A stretch of DNA of 64,000 bases from Alphaproteobacteria bacterium (GTDB lineage Bacteria > Pseudomonadota > Alphaproteobacteria > Micavibrionales > Micavibrionaceae). The translations under genes and the position numbers were made by a program. Under the pieces are notes generated by a model. The model saw only the letters and a list, made by a program, of their open reading frames with translations, did no database searches and was not told the DNA's origin. The DNA lies in the NCBI GenBank assembly GCA_021208265.1, contig JAJOJU010000046.1, positions 1 through 64,000 on the forward strand, in the 5' to 3' direction. Every line of letters starts with the position of its first letter. Position 1 is the first letter of the stretch. Below are positions 1,508 to 10,634 of this stretch, one piece after another.

Positions 1508-1531
1508 TGGAGCGGTGAATGGGATCAACTT
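1508..1531. other. Possible degenerate att site (imperfect copy of tRNA-Gly-TCC 3' end)
   Basis: ggagcggtgaatgggatcaac vs ggagcgggtgatgggaatcgaac at 8406-8428; alignable only with several 1-nt gaps. Confidence 0.3.
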
Positions 1532-1623
1532 AATTACTAAGGCTCTGATTGAAAAACAATTGTGCATCAGTGGTTAACAGATACCACTAAATATACCCCT
1601 TCTTTTTTCCGTGACACACATAG

Positions 1624-2070
1624 CTATAGCTCCGCCATATCAAACCACTGCTTAACAAGGGGGCAAGCCTCAACAGCATTATGCAATATTTTAGTCGCAG
1701 CACGGATCAATATTTCATTTCGTCCAGAATTGCCATCTCCATGCTTTCCCCCGTGGAAAAGATTATTCCTGACACTCAGGCACGCTTGTAGCATTTCTCT
1801 TGTGTCTGAGTCCTTTATCTTTTCCGGAGATGACCAGTATATATTACCATCCTTGTATAGCTGCTTTTTGGGGGGGCTATCAAGAAAATGCCTAATATCA
1901 GCATCAACTGTATCAACGCGCAATTCCTTGTGTACATGGATAATAAATTTTTCCCAGTCCGGCATGGCAGAATCCTTTCTGCCGATTGTTACAAAACCAC
2001 TGTTTTTTAGCGCGTATTCTAACTTTGATATAAAAAGAAAATAATCTTGTGCCGCCTTATTCATGGCCAT
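1624..2070 (-). CDS. HEPN-like protein (putative RNase fold)
   Basis: Translation contains LQACLSVRNNLFHGGKHGDG, a HEPN-type Rx4H motif (R-NNLF-H); start at internal MAMNKAAQD. Confidence 0.65.
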   Translation of the reverse strand: MAMNKAAQDYFLFISKLEYALKNSGFVTIGRKDSAMPDWEKFIIHVHKELRVDTVDADIRHFLDSPPKKQLYKDGNIYWSSPEKIKDSDTREMLQACLSVRNNLFHGGKHGDGNSGRNEILIRAATKILHNAVEACPLVKQWFDMAEL

Positions 2071-2386
2071 CCCCTTTTCTCGTTTTATATTGAAGATATG
2101 CAGAATAGGCAAAAAATACCCCGGTAATCGCATCCAAAGTCATCCAGATTTCTTTGGTCATGTGGATCGTCGCCACCGGGTTGAAAAGAATTGCCACCAT
2201 TGCCCATACCCAGAGCCATACCCCTTGATACCCGCTATTCCATAGCCGATAGCAGATAACCCCGGCACAGCCGCATACAATGATCCGCATGAAGGTATAG
2301 TATCCATAGGGCAGGGGCGCTATGGCGATGAATAACAGCGCCGCTGCCAGAGCAAGTATTTCATATGGAAGATATACATATTTCAT
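2057..2386 (-). CDS. Small multi-span membrane protein, DUF6804-like
   Basis: 109 aa, hydrophobic segments, PYGYYTFMRI and FNPVATIHMTKEIW motifs; overlaps HEPN-like gene by 14 nt. Confidence 0.65.
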   Translation of the reverse strand: MKYVYLPYEILALAAALLFIAIAPLPYGYYTFMRIIVCGCAGVICYRLWNSGYQGVWLWVWAMVAILFNPVATIHMTKEIWMTLDAITGVFFAYSAYLQYKTRKGDGHE

Positions 2387-2387
2387 A

Positions 2388-3029
2388 TTACGAAATATGA
2401 CTTATAAGATTTGAAAATGCACTTTCCATTTGCTCAATGGATTGTTGTCCTTGAGAAACGACTTTACTCATATGAAATGGAATTTTCTGTGCCTTTAATG
2501 ACTTGGCTTTTTCCAAACCTTTTTGAGCAATGCTCAAACAGTCCTCTCGCTTGTTAAGCATCGCATAGACATTGGCTAATCCCATGTATGCAGCCAACTG
2601 ATTATCATCGAGACATATGGCCGATTCCAGAGTGTTTCTCACTATTCCATAATGATGCGACATTTTTTTCTCACTGAATGATGATGCTTGCAAAAGGGAT
2701 TTTAGAGCATCCACCGATGGCATACCAACTTTACAAAGTATTGCAGAAACTTGAGTGCATCCAACCCCTTCTACATATCCTTGTTTTCCAAGCGTTTCAT
2801 AAAAGTGAACAAGGCGCAGTTCCATTGACGTAATGACGAAAACCTCGAACATAGGATCATCGCCAAATTTCTCTACAAGTTCACTGATTAGCCTTGGGTT
2901 AACATTATGCCACGGACGAGTTCTCATAAACCAATCTCGCCGCTCATCAGCATTTTTATTCATGTGAAATGGTTTTGTTGTATTCTCGTTAGAAATTTTT
3001 TGTCCCAGCAGTTTACTTAAAAATCTCAT
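2388..3029 (-). CDS. Hypothetical protein with TPR-like helical segment
   Basis: 213 aa; LDDNQLAAYMGLANVYAMLNKREDCLSIAQKGLEKAK resembles a TPR; 1-nt gap to next gene. Confidence 0.55.
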   Translation of the reverse strand: MRFLSKLLGQKISNENTTKPFHMNKNADERRDWFMRTRPWHNVNPRLISELVEKFGDDPMFEVFVITSMELRLVHFYETLGKQGYVEGVGCTQVSAILCKVGMPSVDALKSLLQASSFSEKKMSHHYGIVRNTLESAICLDDNQLAAYMGLANVYAMLNKREDCLSIAQKGLEKAKSLKAQKIPFHMSKVVSQGQQSIEQMESAFSNLISHIS

Positions 3030-3041
3030 ATCAAACTCCTC

Positions 3042-3078
3042 AAAGAAAAATCACCAGAAGCTGTCCTTCTTCTGGTGA
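3042..3078 (-). terminator. Intrinsic terminator
   Basis: Perfect 10-bp stem tcaccagaag/cttctggtga (3051-3060/3069-3078), 8-nt loop, followed on minus strand by TTTTTCTTT. Confidence 0.8.
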
Positions 3079-3096
3079 CCGGGAGTTTTCAAGCCG

Positions 3097-3195
3097 CTAT
3101 AAGACGACCACGACGGCCTTTACGCCGAAACGCTGGACATACGCCGCCGCCTCCCGGTCATAGACCGAGAAGCGACGTGTTGACGGATACGTCAT
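3097..3195 (-). CDS. Candidate 32-aa small protein
   Basis: ATG...TAG ORF MTYPSTRRFSVYDREAAAYVQRFGVKAVVVVL inside the inverted repeats; weak RBS. Confidence 0.35.
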   Translation of the reverse strand: MTYPSTRRFSVYDREAAAYVQRFGVKAVVVVL

Positions 3196-3249
3196 CCGCT
3201 TATAGAGGGCTTGAAAAGGCCCAGCCTGCCAAAGAGACAAGCTGTGTTC

Positions 3250-3277
3250 ATCATATAGGGCAATGTTTTGATTTCAA
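3250..3277 (-). promoter_or_regulatory. Sigma70-like promoter for the small transcript
   Basis: Minus strand TTGAAA-N16-TATGAT. Confidence 0.45.
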
Positions 3278-3320: not shown

Positions 3321-4205
3321 ATGACCGGCATAATTACAGAACTTCAAAGGGAGGCCATGGACACCAATGTCCGCATTTCCGATCTTTTGCGGAAAGCGCT
3401 TCTTGTTGCGCGTAAACTGAAAATTCCTGACATAGAGACATGGGTTCTGTCAGAATTGAACGGTTATGAAACTGAAGAAATACCAAAATACCGCCATGTG
3501 AGAGGCGAAATAAAAGCCTTTAATACCTATAATGGGGTATGGATGCCTATTATGTTTTCGGAAAGCGACACGCATACGCACCGAACCTTAACTCACAGGA
3601 CATGCAGCCAACCTGTTTCCGAATTAGAAGCGCTGATAGAAAATGGCTCTGGTCAGTTGGGTATGAGATACACCCCAGAAATAGAGGCACGATTGATGAG
3701 AGCGGCGGATATGCCTTTCCCTCCCATGTTGCTGGTTTCTGAATCAAGCCTGCACGGAATACTAGATTGCGTGAGAACCACCATTCTTGAGTGGGCTTTG
3801 AAACTGGAGGAACAAGGAATTGTGGGGGAAAATTTATCGTTTTCTCAGAAAGAGAAAGAAGCAGCTTCCACCGTGACGATCAATGTGGAGACAATGTCAT
3901 ATTCACAAATACAAGCTGGCACTGTCAACTCATCTCAATCTATGGAAAATGAAATTGATTTTGGCCAGTTAAATGAGTTTATTGAGCGACTCGAAAAATC
4001 ATTATCGGAGCTGACCCTTGATAAAGAACAAGCAGCGGAGTTATCAAGTGAAGTATCTACAGTTAAAGCGCAAACAGCGTCGCCAAAGCCTAAACAAAAT
4101 ATCATCAAGGAATCACTTCGCTCCATCAGGACGATTCTGGAAGGTGCTGCCGGAAACATTTCCGCTGATGGGTTGCTAGAGATCATGAGTAATATCAATT
4201 TCTAA
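3321..4205 (+). CDS. AbiTii-domain-like protein (abortive-infection related)
   Basis: 294 aa; N-terminus LLRKALLVARKLKIPDIETWVLSELNGYETEEIPKYRHVRGEIKAFNTYNGVWMPI resembles the AbiTii domain. Confidence 0.75.
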   Translation: MTGIITELQREAMDTNVRISDLLRKALLVARKLKIPDIETWVLSELNGYETEEIPKYRHVRGEIKAFNTYNGVWMPIMFSESDTHTHRTLTHRTCSQPVSELEALIENGSGQLGMRYTPEIEARLMRAADMPFPPMLLVSESSLHGILDCVRTTILEWALKLEEQGIVGENLSFSQKEKEAASTVTINVETMSYSQIQAGTVNSSQSMENEIDFGQLNEFIERLEKSLSELTLDKEQAAELSSEVSTVKAQTASPKPKQNIIKESLRSIRTILEGAAGNISADGLLEIMSNINF

Positions 4206-4210
4206 AACTT

Positions 4211-5299
4211 CTATTTGTGCGTTCTCTTGCATATTTCAGCCAGCAGAGCATCCGACGGAACGTCATGCAACTCAGTTTTTCCCTTCCCGATCCCCTGTAT
4301 GGCTTTATGTTGGTCACGCTGGCTCAGAGTGCCGTAGGAATTGTATGTGGTCATGGCATGTTCGTGACCAAGGTTCTGGCTGATTGCTTTTACCTGTATC
4401 TGGCTGCAATTATCCATCGCCCAGATCACCAGCATCTTTCTAAACGAATGAGGGCGATAATACGGCACACCGGCCAACAGGAAGGCATTTTTGAAAATAT
4501 CACGTACCGCTGAGGCATTCGCCCAATGCTCCCGTGACAACCCCGCAGATTCAAACTTCATCTTCTCAGGGTTGTTTTCCACGCGCTCTTTAGGAAAAAG
4601 TGGATCATTATCTTTCATCCCAAGCTGATCCCGCGCATAGGTAATCCAATCCACCACGATTTCCTCCCAGAGCGGATCAAAAGGCATGAAGAAAGTCGTT
4701 ATACCCTTGCGGTTTTTCGTTCTGACATGTCTGGGATCTTGCCAGATTTCTCTTTTGGGCAAATCCACGTCTTTCATTTTTAGACTTATCAGGGCTGCGT
4801 CGCGCACACCGGAAAGGGCGGTGAATGCCATGATCGCCCGGTTGCGTTTTTCAATATCGTTGCCCACGGGCATGGCTTGTAAAGCCTGCCGCACTTCCTC
4901 AATCGTCGGAGGCGGAGACTCGCGGGTTGCCCTCCCCGCTCGTTCGTCATTATTAGAGAGCCTCAAATAACCCACCGCGCTGCCATCGACTTTGCGTATG
5001 CCCTGCGGATGCGTGGCAAGCCACCTGAAAAACTCCCGGACATGGCCCAGAGTCGAACGCACTGTGGAAAGGCTCAGAGGAACGTCCTTTACGTTTTTCT
5101 GTTTGATCAGCCAGACCTTGAAACTTTTGGCCTGCTCCGCGTTGAAAGTCGTAAAATCTTTCAGGCCGGTTGATTGTTCAAACAAATTGATGGCTTTCCA
5201 TACCGCATCCACGGTGCGCGGCTCCCGGTATGAGCCGTGGATTAAAGCATCTTCATACTGCTTCTTGAAACGCTCATTCAGGGGGTTAAATCCAGCCAT
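4211..5299 (-). CDS. Tyrosine recombinase/integrase
   Basis: 362 aa; ALSGVRDAALISLKMKDVD and HSFRKMLVIWAMDNC / LGHEHAMTTYNSYG catalytic-region motifs. Confidence 0.9.
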   Translation of the reverse strand: MAGFNPLNERFKKQYEDALIHGSYREPRTVDAVWKAINLFEQSTGLKDFTTFNAEQAKSFKVWLIKQKNVKDVPLSLSTVRSTLGHVREFFRWLATHPQGIRKVDGSAVGYLRLSNNDERAGRATRESPPPTIEEVRQALQAMPVGNDIEKRNRAIMAFTALSGVRDAALISLKMKDVDLPKREIWQDPRHVRTKNRKGITTFFMPFDPLWEEIVVDWITYARDQLGMKDNDPLFPKERVENNPEKMKFESAGLSREHWANASAVRDIFKNAFLLAGVPYYRPHSFRKMLVIWAMDNCSQIQVKAISQNLGHEHAMTTYNSYGTLSQRDQHKAIQGIGKGKTELHDVPSDALLAEICKRTHK

Positions 5300-5384: not shown

Positions 5385-5786
5385 CTAAGGATGATTTTCA
5401 TCCCATTTTTCTCCCTTAACGGCCTTGTGTATTTTGGTGTCGCAGACTGAACAGCGCGCCCCAAACAAGACGGTATTATTCGGATTGAGTATAAGACTCC
5501 CGGTATCAAGTTTGGGGGATCTTGGCATTTGGCATTTACAGCAAAACAGCTCATGTTCGGCACAGGGCTTCTTGCGGCTTTTTTGCTTCCGCTCCAAAAA
5601 CCGTTTCAAATCGCTGCTGTGGACAAGGTGCGGACGGGTCATAGGAAGGCGCTTCAAGCCTTCCTCACTAATCCAGCGCCTGACGGTATTCACATTGATC
5701 CCGAATAAATCGGCGATTTGCTCGACCGTATAGGTGTAGTTGTCCTTAATCCGGCGCAGAGAGTATCGACGCAGTTTCTTAGACAT
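5385..5786 (-). CDS. HTH protein with C-terminal CxxC...CxxC zinc-ribbon-like region
   Basis: 133 aa; TVEQIADLFGINVNTVRRWISEEGL HTH, then CCKC...CSVC. Confidence 0.7.
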   Translation of the reverse strand: MSKKLRRYSLRRIKDNYTYTVEQIADLFGINVNTVRRWISEEGLKRLPMTRPHLVHSSDLKRFLERKQKSRKKPCAEHELFCCKCQMPRSPKLDTGSLILNPNNTVLFGARCSVCDTKIHKAVKGEKWDENHP

Positions 5787-6003
5787 TCAGCCCCTCGATC
5801 AAGGCGCGTATATCTTCCACACGCCACGCGGTCATTTTGGGGCCGAGTTTTACCGGCTTTGGATAGCGGCCTTCCTTAACTCCAGCCCACCATGTAGATT
5901 TGCTGACGGGAAAAACTCTCAATACTTCCGGCAATCTTACAAAGCCAGTTTCTGGTAAAATTTGATTTCGCATGATGGTTCTCCTTCGTTTTGTTGAAAC
6001 CAA
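5779..6003 (-). CDS. AlpA-family transcriptional regulator / excisionase-like
   Basis: 74 aa; FVRLPEVLRVFPVSKSTWWAGVKEGRYPKPVKLGPKMTAWRVEDI. Confidence 0.85.
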   Translation of the reverse strand: MVSTKRRRTIMRNQILPETGFVRLPEVLRVFPVSKSTWWAGVKEGRYPKPVKLGPKMTAWRVEDIRALIEGLNV

Positions 6004-6068: not shown

Positions 6069-7004
6069 TCATTCCTGCTTTGTCAGGGCATCCCGAGGCA
6101 AAAACGGTAATGCGTTTTTTATCCAGCGCCGCACAGTATCCTGATCTACCGATAAACCGAGCAATTCAATGTCGTGGACTAAGTCAGGAATCGCCGGACT
6201 CTTTTTTGCGTTCGGGTCATATCCGTATCCTTTGATTATAGCCCCTAAGAGAATTTTATGAATTGTCGTTCTTTCGCGGGATTCCAGCTTATCAGCTTGA
6301 GATTCTTCAAGAGCGGCGGCCAGAGCATCGACCTGGGCCTGTAAATCTTCAATGCTGGTTTTGCTCTTTTCCGACAGCTCTTCATAAAGTTTTCTCCAGT
6401 CAGGCGCGGATGTGACCGGAGCACGGCTGGCGAGAATTTCTTTCATGCGGGCAGGGATCGGAACATTATTACGCTCCGCCCATGCAATAAAATCGGCTGG
6501 CTTCACGGGATCGGTCAGTTCACCGACAGAAACAGCGCGTCCGGCAACCTCATGCAATTTGCGGTAAGAATTAACAAACGGCGAGAGATAAGACATTATG
6601 CCTTTCATTCGCCCCAAGAACACGACCTCAGGATCTTTGCCAAAACTAAGGGCTATGGCTTCATCCAACGACCAGTAGGGCATACGGCTCCAATGATCAC
6701 AATCAGCATCAGCCTTTTTCTGATGGAAAAATCGCCGCCGATCTCTTTCGGAAAGTTGCTTTTCGTATTCTTGATCATAAAGTTCCCTGACCTGCTTTTG
6801 GGGAAGGTTTTCAAGTTCCTGCCTGTATTCCTCGGACTTTTTGAAAACCTCGTCTGTAACGGGCAGCAGCGGTTCTTCATCTTCATAGATGCCATCATTG
6901 AAACCGTATCTTTTGGCTATGGGGGAAGGGTATGGCTCACGCAGTTCAGGGAATTTGCGCGCAACAAGAAATTCAATGTAATCGGGCGTTGGAAGCGTAC
7001 TCAT
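6069..7004 (-). CDS. Island hypothetical protein, translationally coupled to integrase
   Basis: 311 aa, coiled-coil segment and C-terminal helical segment (SVDQDTVRRWIKNALPFLP); 4-nt overlap with 7001-8248. Confidence 0.7.
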   Translation of the reverse strand: MSTLPTPDYIEFLVARKFPELREPYPSPIAKRYGFNDGIYEDEEPLLPVTDEVFKKSEEYRQELENLPQKQVRELYDQEYEKQLSERDRRRFFHQKKADADCDHWSRMPYWSLDEAIALSFGKDPEVVFLGRMKGIMSYLSPFVNSYRKLHEVAGRAVSVGELTDPVKPADFIAWAERNNVPIPARMKEILASRAPVTSAPDWRKLYEELSEKSKTSIEDLQAQVDALAAALEESQADKLESRERTTIHKILLGAIIKGYGYDPNAKKSPAIPDLVHDIELLGLSVDQDTVRRWIKNALPFLPRDALTKQE

Positions 7005-8248
7005 TGTTCTGCTCTTTTTCTGCCCAGATCAAAGGCTCCGACAATTACTTGGCCACCAGTCGCTATCTCATCCAGATAATCCGCCCAGTCCTGCATCATT
7101 TTGGCGCGTTCATCCAGAAATTGAGCGCGGTCATACGCCCGGTCAATCTTACTTTTGTGGGCATGAGCAAGCTGTCGATCCACAACCTCGTGTCTATAGC
7201 CCAGCTTTTCCTTGATGGTACTCATGGCCAGCGCGCGAAAGCCATGTCCGGTCATGCGCCCCTTATATCCCATGCGTCCGATGGCAAAAAGAACTGTGTT
7301 ATTTGACATGGCCTGTTTAGGGCGCACCTGACTGGGAAAAACCCAATCCGTATTCAGATGCCCCGTTTCTTCATGCTGTTCTTTCAGAATGGCAATCGCT
7401 TGCCGGGAAAGCGGAACAATATGAGGTTTTCCCATCTTCATGCGTTCTGCCGGTATTTCCCAAACGGCGTTCTCAAAATCAATTTCATGCCATTTTGCGT
7501 GTATCATTTCCGTAGTGCGCGTGAAGCATAACATTAAAAGCCTTATAGCCCTGCGCGTCCGGGCATACAGGCGCGCATCATTTTTTTCAAGCACGTTCAG
7601 GAATTGAGGCATCTCCCTTATATCAAGACAATGAAAGTGCTGTGTTTTTCCTGCTTTCAAAGCCCCTTTTAAATCAGCCGCCGAATCACGCTTACAGCGG
7701 CCCGAAGAAATGCCATACCGGAAAATCTGACCACAAATCTGTTTTACCCGCGCGGCCACATCCAGCGCGCCCCGTTTCTCGATTCTCCTTAAAACACTTT
7801 CCAGCAAATCCGGCGGATCAATATCTGCAATAGGGCGTTTTCCGATAAATGGAAAAATATCAATCTCCAAGCGCCGCATAACATTCCGGGCATGGGCGGG
7901 TGTCCATTTCCCTTTCTGGTTTTCATGCCATTCACGAGCGACGACCTCGAATGTATTCCGGGATTTACGAACAGCCTGCTTGCGTTGCTGCTTCTTTTCC
8001 TCAGAAGGATCTTTTCCTGCGGCCAGCAACTTTTTTGCCTGATCTCGCTTCTCTCGCGCGTCTGCCAGAGTCACGATGGGATATACTCCCAGCGCGAGAA
8101 GTTTTTCTTTGCTCAAGAAATAGTATTTAAGCCGCCAGTAACGCGCGCCATCAGTGCGTACATACAGATAAAGCCCACCGCCATCAGCCAGTTTATATGG
8201 CTTTTCCTTGGGCTTTGCAGCACGGCATGTTTTGTCCGATAATTTCAC
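7001..8248 (-). CDS. P4-type tyrosine integrase (DUF4102 arm-binding N-terminus)
   Basis: 415 aa; KLSDKTCRAAKPKEKPYKLADGGGLYLYVRTDGARYWRLKY; downstream of tRNA-Gly 3' end. Confidence 0.95.
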   Translation of the reverse strand: MKLSDKTCRAAKPKEKPYKLADGGGLYLYVRTDGARYWRLKYYFLSKEKLLALGVYPIVTLADAREKRDQAKKLLAAGKDPSEEKKQQRKQAVRKSRNTFEVVAREWHENQKGKWTPAHARNVMRRLEIDIFPFIGKRPIADIDPPDLLESVLRRIEKRGALDVAARVKQICGQIFRYGISSGRCKRDSAADLKGALKAGKTQHFHCLDIREMPQFLNVLEKNDARLYARTRRAIRLLMLCFTRTTEMIHAKWHEIDFENAVWEIPAERMKMGKPHIVPLSRQAIAILKEQHEETGHLNTDWVFPSQVRPKQAMSNNTVLFAIGRMGYKGRMTGHGFRALAMSTIKEKLGYRHEVVDRQLAHAHKSKIDRAYDRAQFLDERAKMMQDWADYLDEIATGGQVIVGAFDLGRKRAEQ

Positions 8249-8404: not shown

Positions 8405-8478
8405 TGGAGCGGGTGATGGGAATCGAACCCACATAGCTAGCTTGGAAGGCTAGAGCTTTACCACTAAGCTACACCCGC
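8405..8478 (-). tRNA. tRNA-Gly (TCC)
   Basis: Cloverleaf: acceptor GCGGGTG/CACCCGC, anticodon loop CTTCCAA, T-arm GGGTTCGATTCCC, CCA encoded. Confidence 0.95.
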
Positions 8479-9052: not shown

Positions 9053-9802
9053 TTACGCTACTTTACGGACCTCGTTCTCGCGTATTTTCTGGCGAAGAAG
9101 CGGTGAATAGCCAAGAGCGCGCTGCTCGATTTCCTGTTCAATCGCATCCGGCGTACGGCCAAAATCCAGTACAGGATCTAATAAGCCCGTACTCTCGCGT
9201 ATGGTCCGGTTGATTTCCTCGTTCACCCAAAGACGACCCACACGAACCACTTCGCCGCCAATATCGGTTTCAGGACCCAAATAATCGACCTCCCAGCCGG
9301 GGCGCTCAAAAACCTTCCAGTAATGCGGGTTCATCAGGGCCACATAAGCATCCAGACGCTTATACAGCGCATATTCCATGTAACCCACGATAAGCTCGTT
9401 CACGACCGCACGGCGCCTGTCTCTGTCATCGCGCAGCCGCGGATGCACCACCAACCGGCTGGCTTCGTATATCTTGGGACCGGAAGGAAGCTCGGTCGTC
9501 ACCAAACTTCGGAAACTTTCGGAAATCATGAACTGACCGATAGTACCGGGTTCCGTGAGCTCATCCACCGTGGGAAACAGCCGTGTAACACCTAATATCC
9601 GGCCATCATGCTCGCAGCGGCTAACCAGATAGCGGGTTCCCGGCTTATCAAAATTATCCGCTTCCGTATTTTCATGGGCTGTCAATCCCTGTTTCCAACC
9701 CAGCTCCGCCACACAAACCTGATATCTGAGCTCAAATTGCTCTCTGAGCGGGTTGTGAGGAAAAAAGTTTACACAATTACCAACTCCGACGCATTCAATC
9801 AC
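9053..9802 (-). CDS. LuxI-family acyl-homoserine-lactone synthase
   Basis: 249 aa; RYQV...GWK...EADNFD...GVTRLFPT...YEASRLVVHPRL match the conserved R/W/D/D/R/E/R residues of AHL synthases. Confidence 0.9.
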   Translation of the reverse strand: MIECVGVGNCVNFFPHNPLREQFELRYQVCVAELGWKQGLTAHENTEADNFDKPGTRYLVSRCEHDGRILGVTRLFPTVDELTEPGTIGQFMISESFRSLVTTELPSGPKIYEASRLVVHPRLRDDRDRRRAVVNELIVGYMEYALYKRLDAYVALMNPHYWKVFERPGWEVDYLGPETDIGGEVVRVGRLWVNEEINRTIRESTGLLDPVLDFGRTPDAIEQEIEQRALGYSPLLRQKIRENEVRKVA

Positions 9803-9860
9803 AGAAGTTCTCCTTTTCTTGTGAATGACTCCTGCGTTGATTGAAATAATTTTAGAGGAT

Positions 9861-10634
9861 TTAAGAAACTGACACTTTTGACAGGGGGGTCCCGATCAGC
9901 ACGGGATCAATAAGCCCAAGCCGTATCGCCTTGGTCATGGCATACACACGCCCGTAGGCATCTAGCTTTTTGAAAATCTTGTTCCAGTGGAACCGCACCG
10001 TGCTGAAACTGATATTAAGGATGGCAGCGATTTCCTCGTCTGTCTTGCTTTCCACCGCCCAGCACAGGATTTCTTTTTCCCGCACGGTCAGGCTGATCTG
10101 ATGATCAGGGCTGATCATGTTCTTGTATGTTTCGTGAAAATAAACCGTCAGGAAATAAGCATTCGCCAATAACTGGTAGTTTCGCTTTTGATGCCGGGCT
10201 TTTGCTTTGTTGGGTTCTGTACGGCATAGCCCCACCCCGACAATTTCCCCCGGCGAACTGATAAGCGAGATACCGATACCGTCAGATACACCGGCCTCAT
10301 CCGCCTCATCCATCAAGAGTTTGGAGGATTTCCGTATATTGGGATCCCTGTCCAGATCCGACCAGAAGAAAGGAACGCGGGATCTGGCAATCCGCTCGAT
10401 GACAGGATCGACATCGATATAATTATTCTGCCGGTAATATTTCATCCAGTGTTCGGGATAATTCGTCACCAGACCGTGCTGGCGCGGCAAACCCAAACTG
10501 GGGTGATCTGTAACAAGGCTATAAACAGCGCGGCCATAGCCCTCTCTCTCCATAATGGAGGCATATCTGCTAAAGGCCTCTTCCGGCGTTTCCGCAGAAT
10601 TTATCAGCGCTATATAATCATCCAAATTCTTCAT
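9861..10634 (-). CDS. LuxR-family regulator with autoinducer-binding domain
   Basis: 257 aa; HWMKYYRQNNYIDVDPV and FFWSD (W..Y..DP..W signature) plus C-terminal LTVREKEILCWAVESKTDEEIAAILNISFSTVRFHWNKIFKKL HTH. Confidence 0.92.
   Translation of the reverse strand: MKNLDDYIALINSAETPEEAFSRYASIMEREGYGRAVYSLVTDHPSLGLPRQHGLVTNYPEHWMKYYRQNNYIDVDPVIERIARSRVPFFWSDLDRDPNIRKSSKLLMDEADEAGVSDGIGISLISSPGEIVGVGLCRTEPNKAKARHQKRNYQLLANAYFLTVYFHETYKNMISPDHQISLTVREKEILCWAVESKTDEEIAAILNISFSTVRFHWNKIFKKLDAYGRVYAMTKAIRLGLIDPVLIGTPLSKVSVS

Follow-up and report, generated by a model that had tools for sequence, protein, structure and literature searches.

An sRNA-Xcc1-like leader RNA that may restrain the cargo operon of a putative HEPN ribonuclease in a tRNA-Gly island

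Introduction

The C4 antisense RNA of phages P1, P7 and P22 and the CI RNA of P4 are encoded just 5' of the gene that they control, are complementary to the ribosome-binding site (RBS) of that gene or to their own leader, and have an acceptor-like stem and a CCA-like end. The small RNA sRNA-Xcc1 (Rfam RF02221), which occurs in Xanthomonas and in integron cassettes with symE, was mapped as a discrete 88-nt sRNA (PMC2996969), and members of its family are transcribed (PMC2996969, PMC5331693). The literature treats it as an sRNA that acts in trans or in virulence, and one paper notes that it lies 5' of symE (PMC12444791). Our literature search found no paper that brings sRNA-Xcc1 together with antirepressors. 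Proteins of the HEPN superfamily are recognised by an Rx4-6H motif that closes helix 3 and has a polar residue following the R, and by an Ex3[KR] motif (Anantharaman 2013, PMC3710099).

Here we analysed a window of 64,000 nucleotides of DNA from an alphaproteobacterium of the Micavibrionaceae, in which a preliminary description had pointed to a tight operon of three minus-strand genes inside a tRNA-linked island and had suggested that the three genes could form one abortive-infection (Abi) or toxin-antitoxin (TA) system.

Results

The genes of the operon had been placed correctly, but a structured RNA of about 200 nt at its head (3045-3243, minus strand) had been missed. This RNA comprises a 5' hairpin (3243-3223), a pseudoknotted body and a terminator-like hairpin with a U run (3049-3080, minus strand), the last lying directly 5' of the Shine-Dalgarno sequence of the operon, and it contains an sRNA-Xcc1-like core (3069-3159, minus strand; 31.9 bits, E = 0.016) with an acceptor-like stem, GACCGGGAG/CUCCCGGUC, followed by ACCA. 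Compared with shuffled sequences, the region folds with z = -6.5 on the minus strand and z = -4.2 on the plus strand. When 22 elements of the window type are aligned, ten helices with 57 pairs are supported, three pseudoknots included: 97.7% of the cells are paired, double-change cells number 201 against 55.4 in shuffles, and covariation amounts to 0.476 against 0.186 in shuffles and at most 0.092 in slid versions of the alignment. The strand is fixed by frequent G-U pairs, such as that between positions 87 and 122 (19 of 22 elements), conserved G-U pairs being found on the minus strand only. There is strong evidence, then, that positions 3243-3045 of the minus strand are a real, covarying and pseudoknotted RNA in leader position. 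Read from 5' to 3' on the operon strand, the RNA is followed by the terminator, the Shine-Dalgarno sequence and the start codon of the first gene, the terminator being only about 20-25 nt away from that codon. Some bases of the acceptor-like stem belong also to the base of the terminator, and the 3' strand of the stem, AACUCC, is able to pair with the Shine-Dalgarno sequence. Upstream of the RNA lies a candidate sigma-70-like promoter (3250-3277, minus strand; TTGAAA-16-TATGAT) that agrees with the consensus at 10 of 12 positions, such sites being locally no commoner than in shuffles.

Our own model of the RNA was built from the 22-element alignment, so that those 22 match it by construction and all other matches are independent; it finds the element in 30 of 38 relatives, with 1-10 copies in each, and RF02221 itself has matches in 40 of 58 relatives, with several to a genome. 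We examined 71 copies; as these share descent, the counts that follow do not stand for so many independent events. In 61 of the 71 an ORF of at least 60 aa begins on the same strand 5-150 nt 3' of the RNA (median distance 39 nt), against a random expectation with a mean of 34.9 and a maximum of 43 copies; a Shine-Dalgarno tetramer (4-nt match) follows the RNA in 62 copies, and a terminator-like hairpin accompanies it in 66, compared with 16.6% of control windows. The genes 3' of the RNA are unrelated to each other, encoding membrane proteins, HTH proteins, HNH and GIY-YIG proteins, porins and many proteins of no known kind, with lipoproteins, as recognised by a simple pattern, making up 14 of 62. 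HEPN genes outside the window are not accompanied by the RNA. The hemA neighbourhood was tried as an empty site for the RNA cassette and rejected, gene order there not being conserved and the RNA occurring at that place, among the loci read, in genome G011 only. In another genome two sRNA-Xcc1-like elements whose helix sequences differ lie 278 nt apart (L158 and L177, G024:C1:675697 and 675975); clustered sRNA-Xcc1 copies have been reported in Xylella (PMC12189769).

These counts bear on the possibility that the RNA acts in trans as an sRNA in its own right and that the operon, served by a promoter of its own, lies downstream of it by chance. Such a reading agrees with the discrete 88-nt form in which sRNA-Xcc1 is known (PMC2996969), and the terminator would indeed yield a discrete RNA. 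It is nevertheless unlikely, because the spacing and strand of the RNA relative to an ORF bearing a Shine-Dalgarno sequence are nearly constant over the 71 copies while the genes themselves are unrelated, and because the short interval between terminator and start codon leaves too little room for a promoter. A trans-acting role and a leader role could also coexist.

The window RNA scores below the Rfam gathering cut-off of RF02221 (31.9 against 53 bits). Relatives of it exceed that cut-off (54.6-57.9 bits), and the model of the window type (R1), along the whole of its own length, matches Rfam-positive elements that come from other orders (for example L219, E = 8.9e-7, and L202, E = 2.4e-5). 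Through these intermediates, sequence comparison indicates that the window RNA is homologous to sRNA-Xcc1 over the whole element, and since the window-type model spans Rfam-positive members from end to end, the element is larger than the 87-position Rfam model. Both RNAs have the same core fold and acceptor-like stem, and both are mobile, multicopy and located 5' of a gene (PMC12444791). The window RNA differs in having a covarying 5' half that is absent from the Rfam model, and in the constant placement of its terminator and Shine-Dalgarno site. The Rfam model begins at the position that corresponds to the 5' nucleotide of the acceptor-like stem, and the 87 positions of the model come close to the length of the mapped 88-nt sRNA (PMC2996969).

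A comparison with C4 and P4 CI RNA was made on a phylum-wide sample, in which sRNA-Xcc1 elements were present in 51 of 299 genomes of Pseudomonadota. There a duplex of the core's 3' segment with its own RBS reaches -23.3 kcal/mol, against -18.2 kcal/mol with the RBS of other loci (0 of 2000 permutations), and for the duplex with its own 5' half the values are -34.1 against -25.5 kcal/mol. This duplex test was not blind, the segment having been picked after an unrestricted scan of the whole core for complementarity had proved too noisy and had been dropped. Within the window's order pairing with the own 5' half is very strong (-35.6 against -24.1 kcal/mol) and pairing with the own RBS is weak (-18.0 against -16.7 kcal/mol), a terminator being found there instead; because of this weak complementarity, direct repression of the C4 type is not shown for the window's order. 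Ten proteins encoded 3' of the phylum-wide elements include four with Bro-N (one of them just below the cut-off), one with KilA-N, one with P22_AR_N and two with Rha. Relatives of sRNA-Xcc1 outside the window's order are thus like C4 and P4 CI RNA in being complementary to their own RBS and like C4 RNA in often preceding antirepressor genes, and the acceptor-like stem of the window RNA, with its ACCA, resembles the acceptor end of a tRNA. The window RNA is unlike C4 in that it does not match the Rfam C4 models and has the terminator in place of clear RBS complementarity. At one locus (L209:2890-2958) a sub-threshold c4-2 RNA lies near an sRNA-Xcc1 element 5' of a P22_AR antirepressor gene.

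The three minus-strand ORFs of the operon (3029-2388, 2386-2057 and 2070-1624) are present as described, with a gap of 1 nt and then an overlap of 14 nt, which shrinks to 8 nt if the HEPN gene is started at its second ATG (2064). The product of the first gene (2388-3029; 213 aa) had been called TPR-like; that it is helical stands, but its match to TPR_19 is below threshold (E = 0.05; 14.3 bits against 25), which makes it weakly TPR-like, and a search of 72,556 plasmids and of 289 genomes from its class detected no relative of it. A single-sequence fold gave an all-helix model of low confidence (pLDDT 49.9), too poor to be used as evidence, and it was set aside. The second gene (2057-2386; 109 aa) encodes a DUF6804 membrane protein, a call now borne out by a score of 81.6 bits against a Pfam cut-off of 27 (PF20619, E = 4.7e-23); our literature search found no function for DUF6804.

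The third gene (1624-2070, minus strand, with the alternative start at 2064) encodes a protein of 148 aa with Ex3K at residues 18-22 and Rx4H at residues 101-106, the latter within the RNNLFHGG motif (residues 101-108) that had been noticed before. Across 83 diverse homologues E18, W39, R101, N102, N103, H106, G107 and K109 are invariant, and K22 is kept in at least 90%, completing the Ex3[KR] motif with the invariant E18; given this invariance, the HEPN motif is not a product of chance. In an AlphaFold model (pLDDT 92.7) the protein is helical, and the motif ends the helix 90-109 before a long last helix (115-134). The protein is like the HEPN superfamily of Anantharaman 2013 (PMC3710099) in having Rx4H, a polar residue after the R, and Ex3[KR], and its Rx4H may, as the model suggests, likewise close helix 3. 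It differs in that all 83 homologues fall in phrog_19013 and in that family only, no Pfam, NCBIfam or PADLOC model matching it, and in not being fused to MNT, CARF or any other partner. A Foldseek search of the model against the PDB gave no meaningful match (best E = 0.08), and the best PDB profile matches were chains of CRISPR-associated proteins, at a marginal E = 0.01, RNSVAHGGR standing opposite RNNLFHGgK in the alignment. Against RiboL-PSP-HEPN, hhalign gave a probability of 4.5%, the motif alone aligning. The two hallmarks uphold the earlier HEPN-like reading, and the product is, on these sequence features, likely a HEPN protein and probably an RNA-cutting enzyme.

Relatives of the HEPN gene turned up in GTDB genomes (279 candidates, 80 of them fetched), in viral contigs (35), on 21 plasmids and on 38 E. 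coli chromosomes. Over about 124 loci the upstream neighbours are very diverse and the contexts unrelated, and none of these loci has a detectable relative of the DUF6804 protein or of the helical, TPR-like protein; relatives of the DUF6804 protein are rare and sited elsewhere, and no HEPN gene was found beside them. Homologues of the HEPN protein stand alone on 5-kb plasmids and occur also in P2-like prophage remnants of E. coli, 3' of a tail-fibre assembly gene. P2-like phages carry accessory genes at the site after this gene. In E. coli NCTC9100 the homologue past the tail-fibre assembly gene (L272:7013-7465) is at least 99% identical in 12 E. coli genomes. At two further loci (L004 and L093) the homologue adjoins QueC-like and TatD-like genes, an arrangement that, judged by eye from the ORFs, recalls the Qat defence locus. 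The HEPN family phrog_19013 is large, mobile and without fixed partners, and the trio is not a conserved three-gene system. This lack of co-occurrence contradicts, within the limits of single-sequence detection, the single Abi or TA system of three genes that the preliminary description had suggested. A dedicated system in which the helical or the DUF6804 protein would act as sensor or antitoxin may draw on the tight coupling of the genes, on the hallmarks of a HEPN RNase and on the AbiTii gene next door; we judge it decidedly improbable, the trio not being conserved together, HEPN homologues doing without partners on small plasmids and in prophages, and no nucleotidyltransferase of the kind found in HEPN-MNT pairs being present among the scanned proteins of the operon and the island.

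That the operon belongs to a tRNA-linked island was confirmed, an intact tRNA-Gly(tcc) (8405-8478, minus strand) forming one end and a degraded partial copy (about 1508-1600, minus strand), whose score is equalled by 2 of 500 shuffles, the opposite one, with two tyrosine integrases and an AlpA-type regulator between them. Next to the operon lies the gene of an AbiTii-domain protein (3321-4205, plus strand), the earlier AbiTii-like assignment being sustained well over the Pfam cut-off (E = 2.4e-48). It is a neighbour of the operon in the same island but is divergent from it, and nothing ties AbiTii to the operon. Then follow, all on the minus strand, tyrosine integrase 1 (4211-5299), an HTH_17/excisionase-like protein (5385-5786), the AlpA-type regulator (5779-5973), a protein with no family assigned (6069-7004) and tyrosine integrase 2, of the Arm-DNA-bind_3 type (7001-8248), which adjoins tRNA-Gly. 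The two integrases of this 6.9-kb island are different, and the island is possibly made of two nested elements. In two relatives (L234 and L240) tRNA-Gly(tcc) is directly beside tuf. Elsewhere in the window (9053-10634, minus strand) the genes of a LuxI-type autoinducer synthase (E = 4.9e-17) and a LuxR-type regulator (E = 4.1e-25) stand side by side between tRNA-Gly(ccc) and tRNA-Tyr. The notion that the structured stretch serves AbiTii as a plus-strand leader, or that it is no RNA but a site of recombination, which its place between two divergent genes and the folding of the plus strand might suggest, is highly implausible, as the conserved G-U pairs, the terminator and the Shine-Dalgarno site are all on the minus side and a divergent upstream ORF of at least 60 aa is found in only 12 of the 71 RNA copies.

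Discussion

On balance we lean towards the explanation that an sRNA-Xcc1-like leader or attenuator RNA restrains the cargo operon of a stand-alone HEPN RNase in a tRNA-Gly island, the gating by the RNA, the RNase function and the role of the HEPN protein in defence being what we infer. An integrative island inserted in tRNA-Gly(tcc) would carry the trio at its tuf end as a moron-like cargo operon. Transcription would start near 3243, the terminator would stop most transcripts, and RNase P may free the core, as the acceptor-like stem with ACCA, and this feature only, suggests. Because that stem overlaps the base of the terminator and AACUCC can pair with the Shine-Dalgarno sequence, the operon would be expressed upon refolding of the RNA or read-through of the terminator. 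The HEPN protein, once made, would act on its own as an RNA-cutting effector, phage being the most likely target, and the helical and DUF6804 proteins would be helpers at this locus or passengers that it could do without.

The main finding seems to lie in the RNA more than in the three genes. An sRNA family that is annotated widely appears to have been misread, its core belonging to a larger leader with a terminator before unrelated cargo genes, and within the literature covered this leader reading of sRNA-Xcc1 looks new. Each locus has two variable 7-bp helices, which would form the barcode of the leader. We put forward tentatively, with more doubt than confidence, that sRNA-Xcc1-type RNAs are self-specific, barcoded leaders gating horizontally acquired genes across Pseudomonadota, and not primarily trans-acting virulence sRNAs, the one in the window gating the operon of a putative HEPN RNase. 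If this is true, the cassette of the window would be an RNA-gated suicide or defence cassette. The leader function would be directly testable by simple reporters, and the RNA would help to locate mobile cargo that lies silent, among it possible defence genes like those of the HEPN family described here, for which Pfam, NCBIfam and PADLOC have no model.
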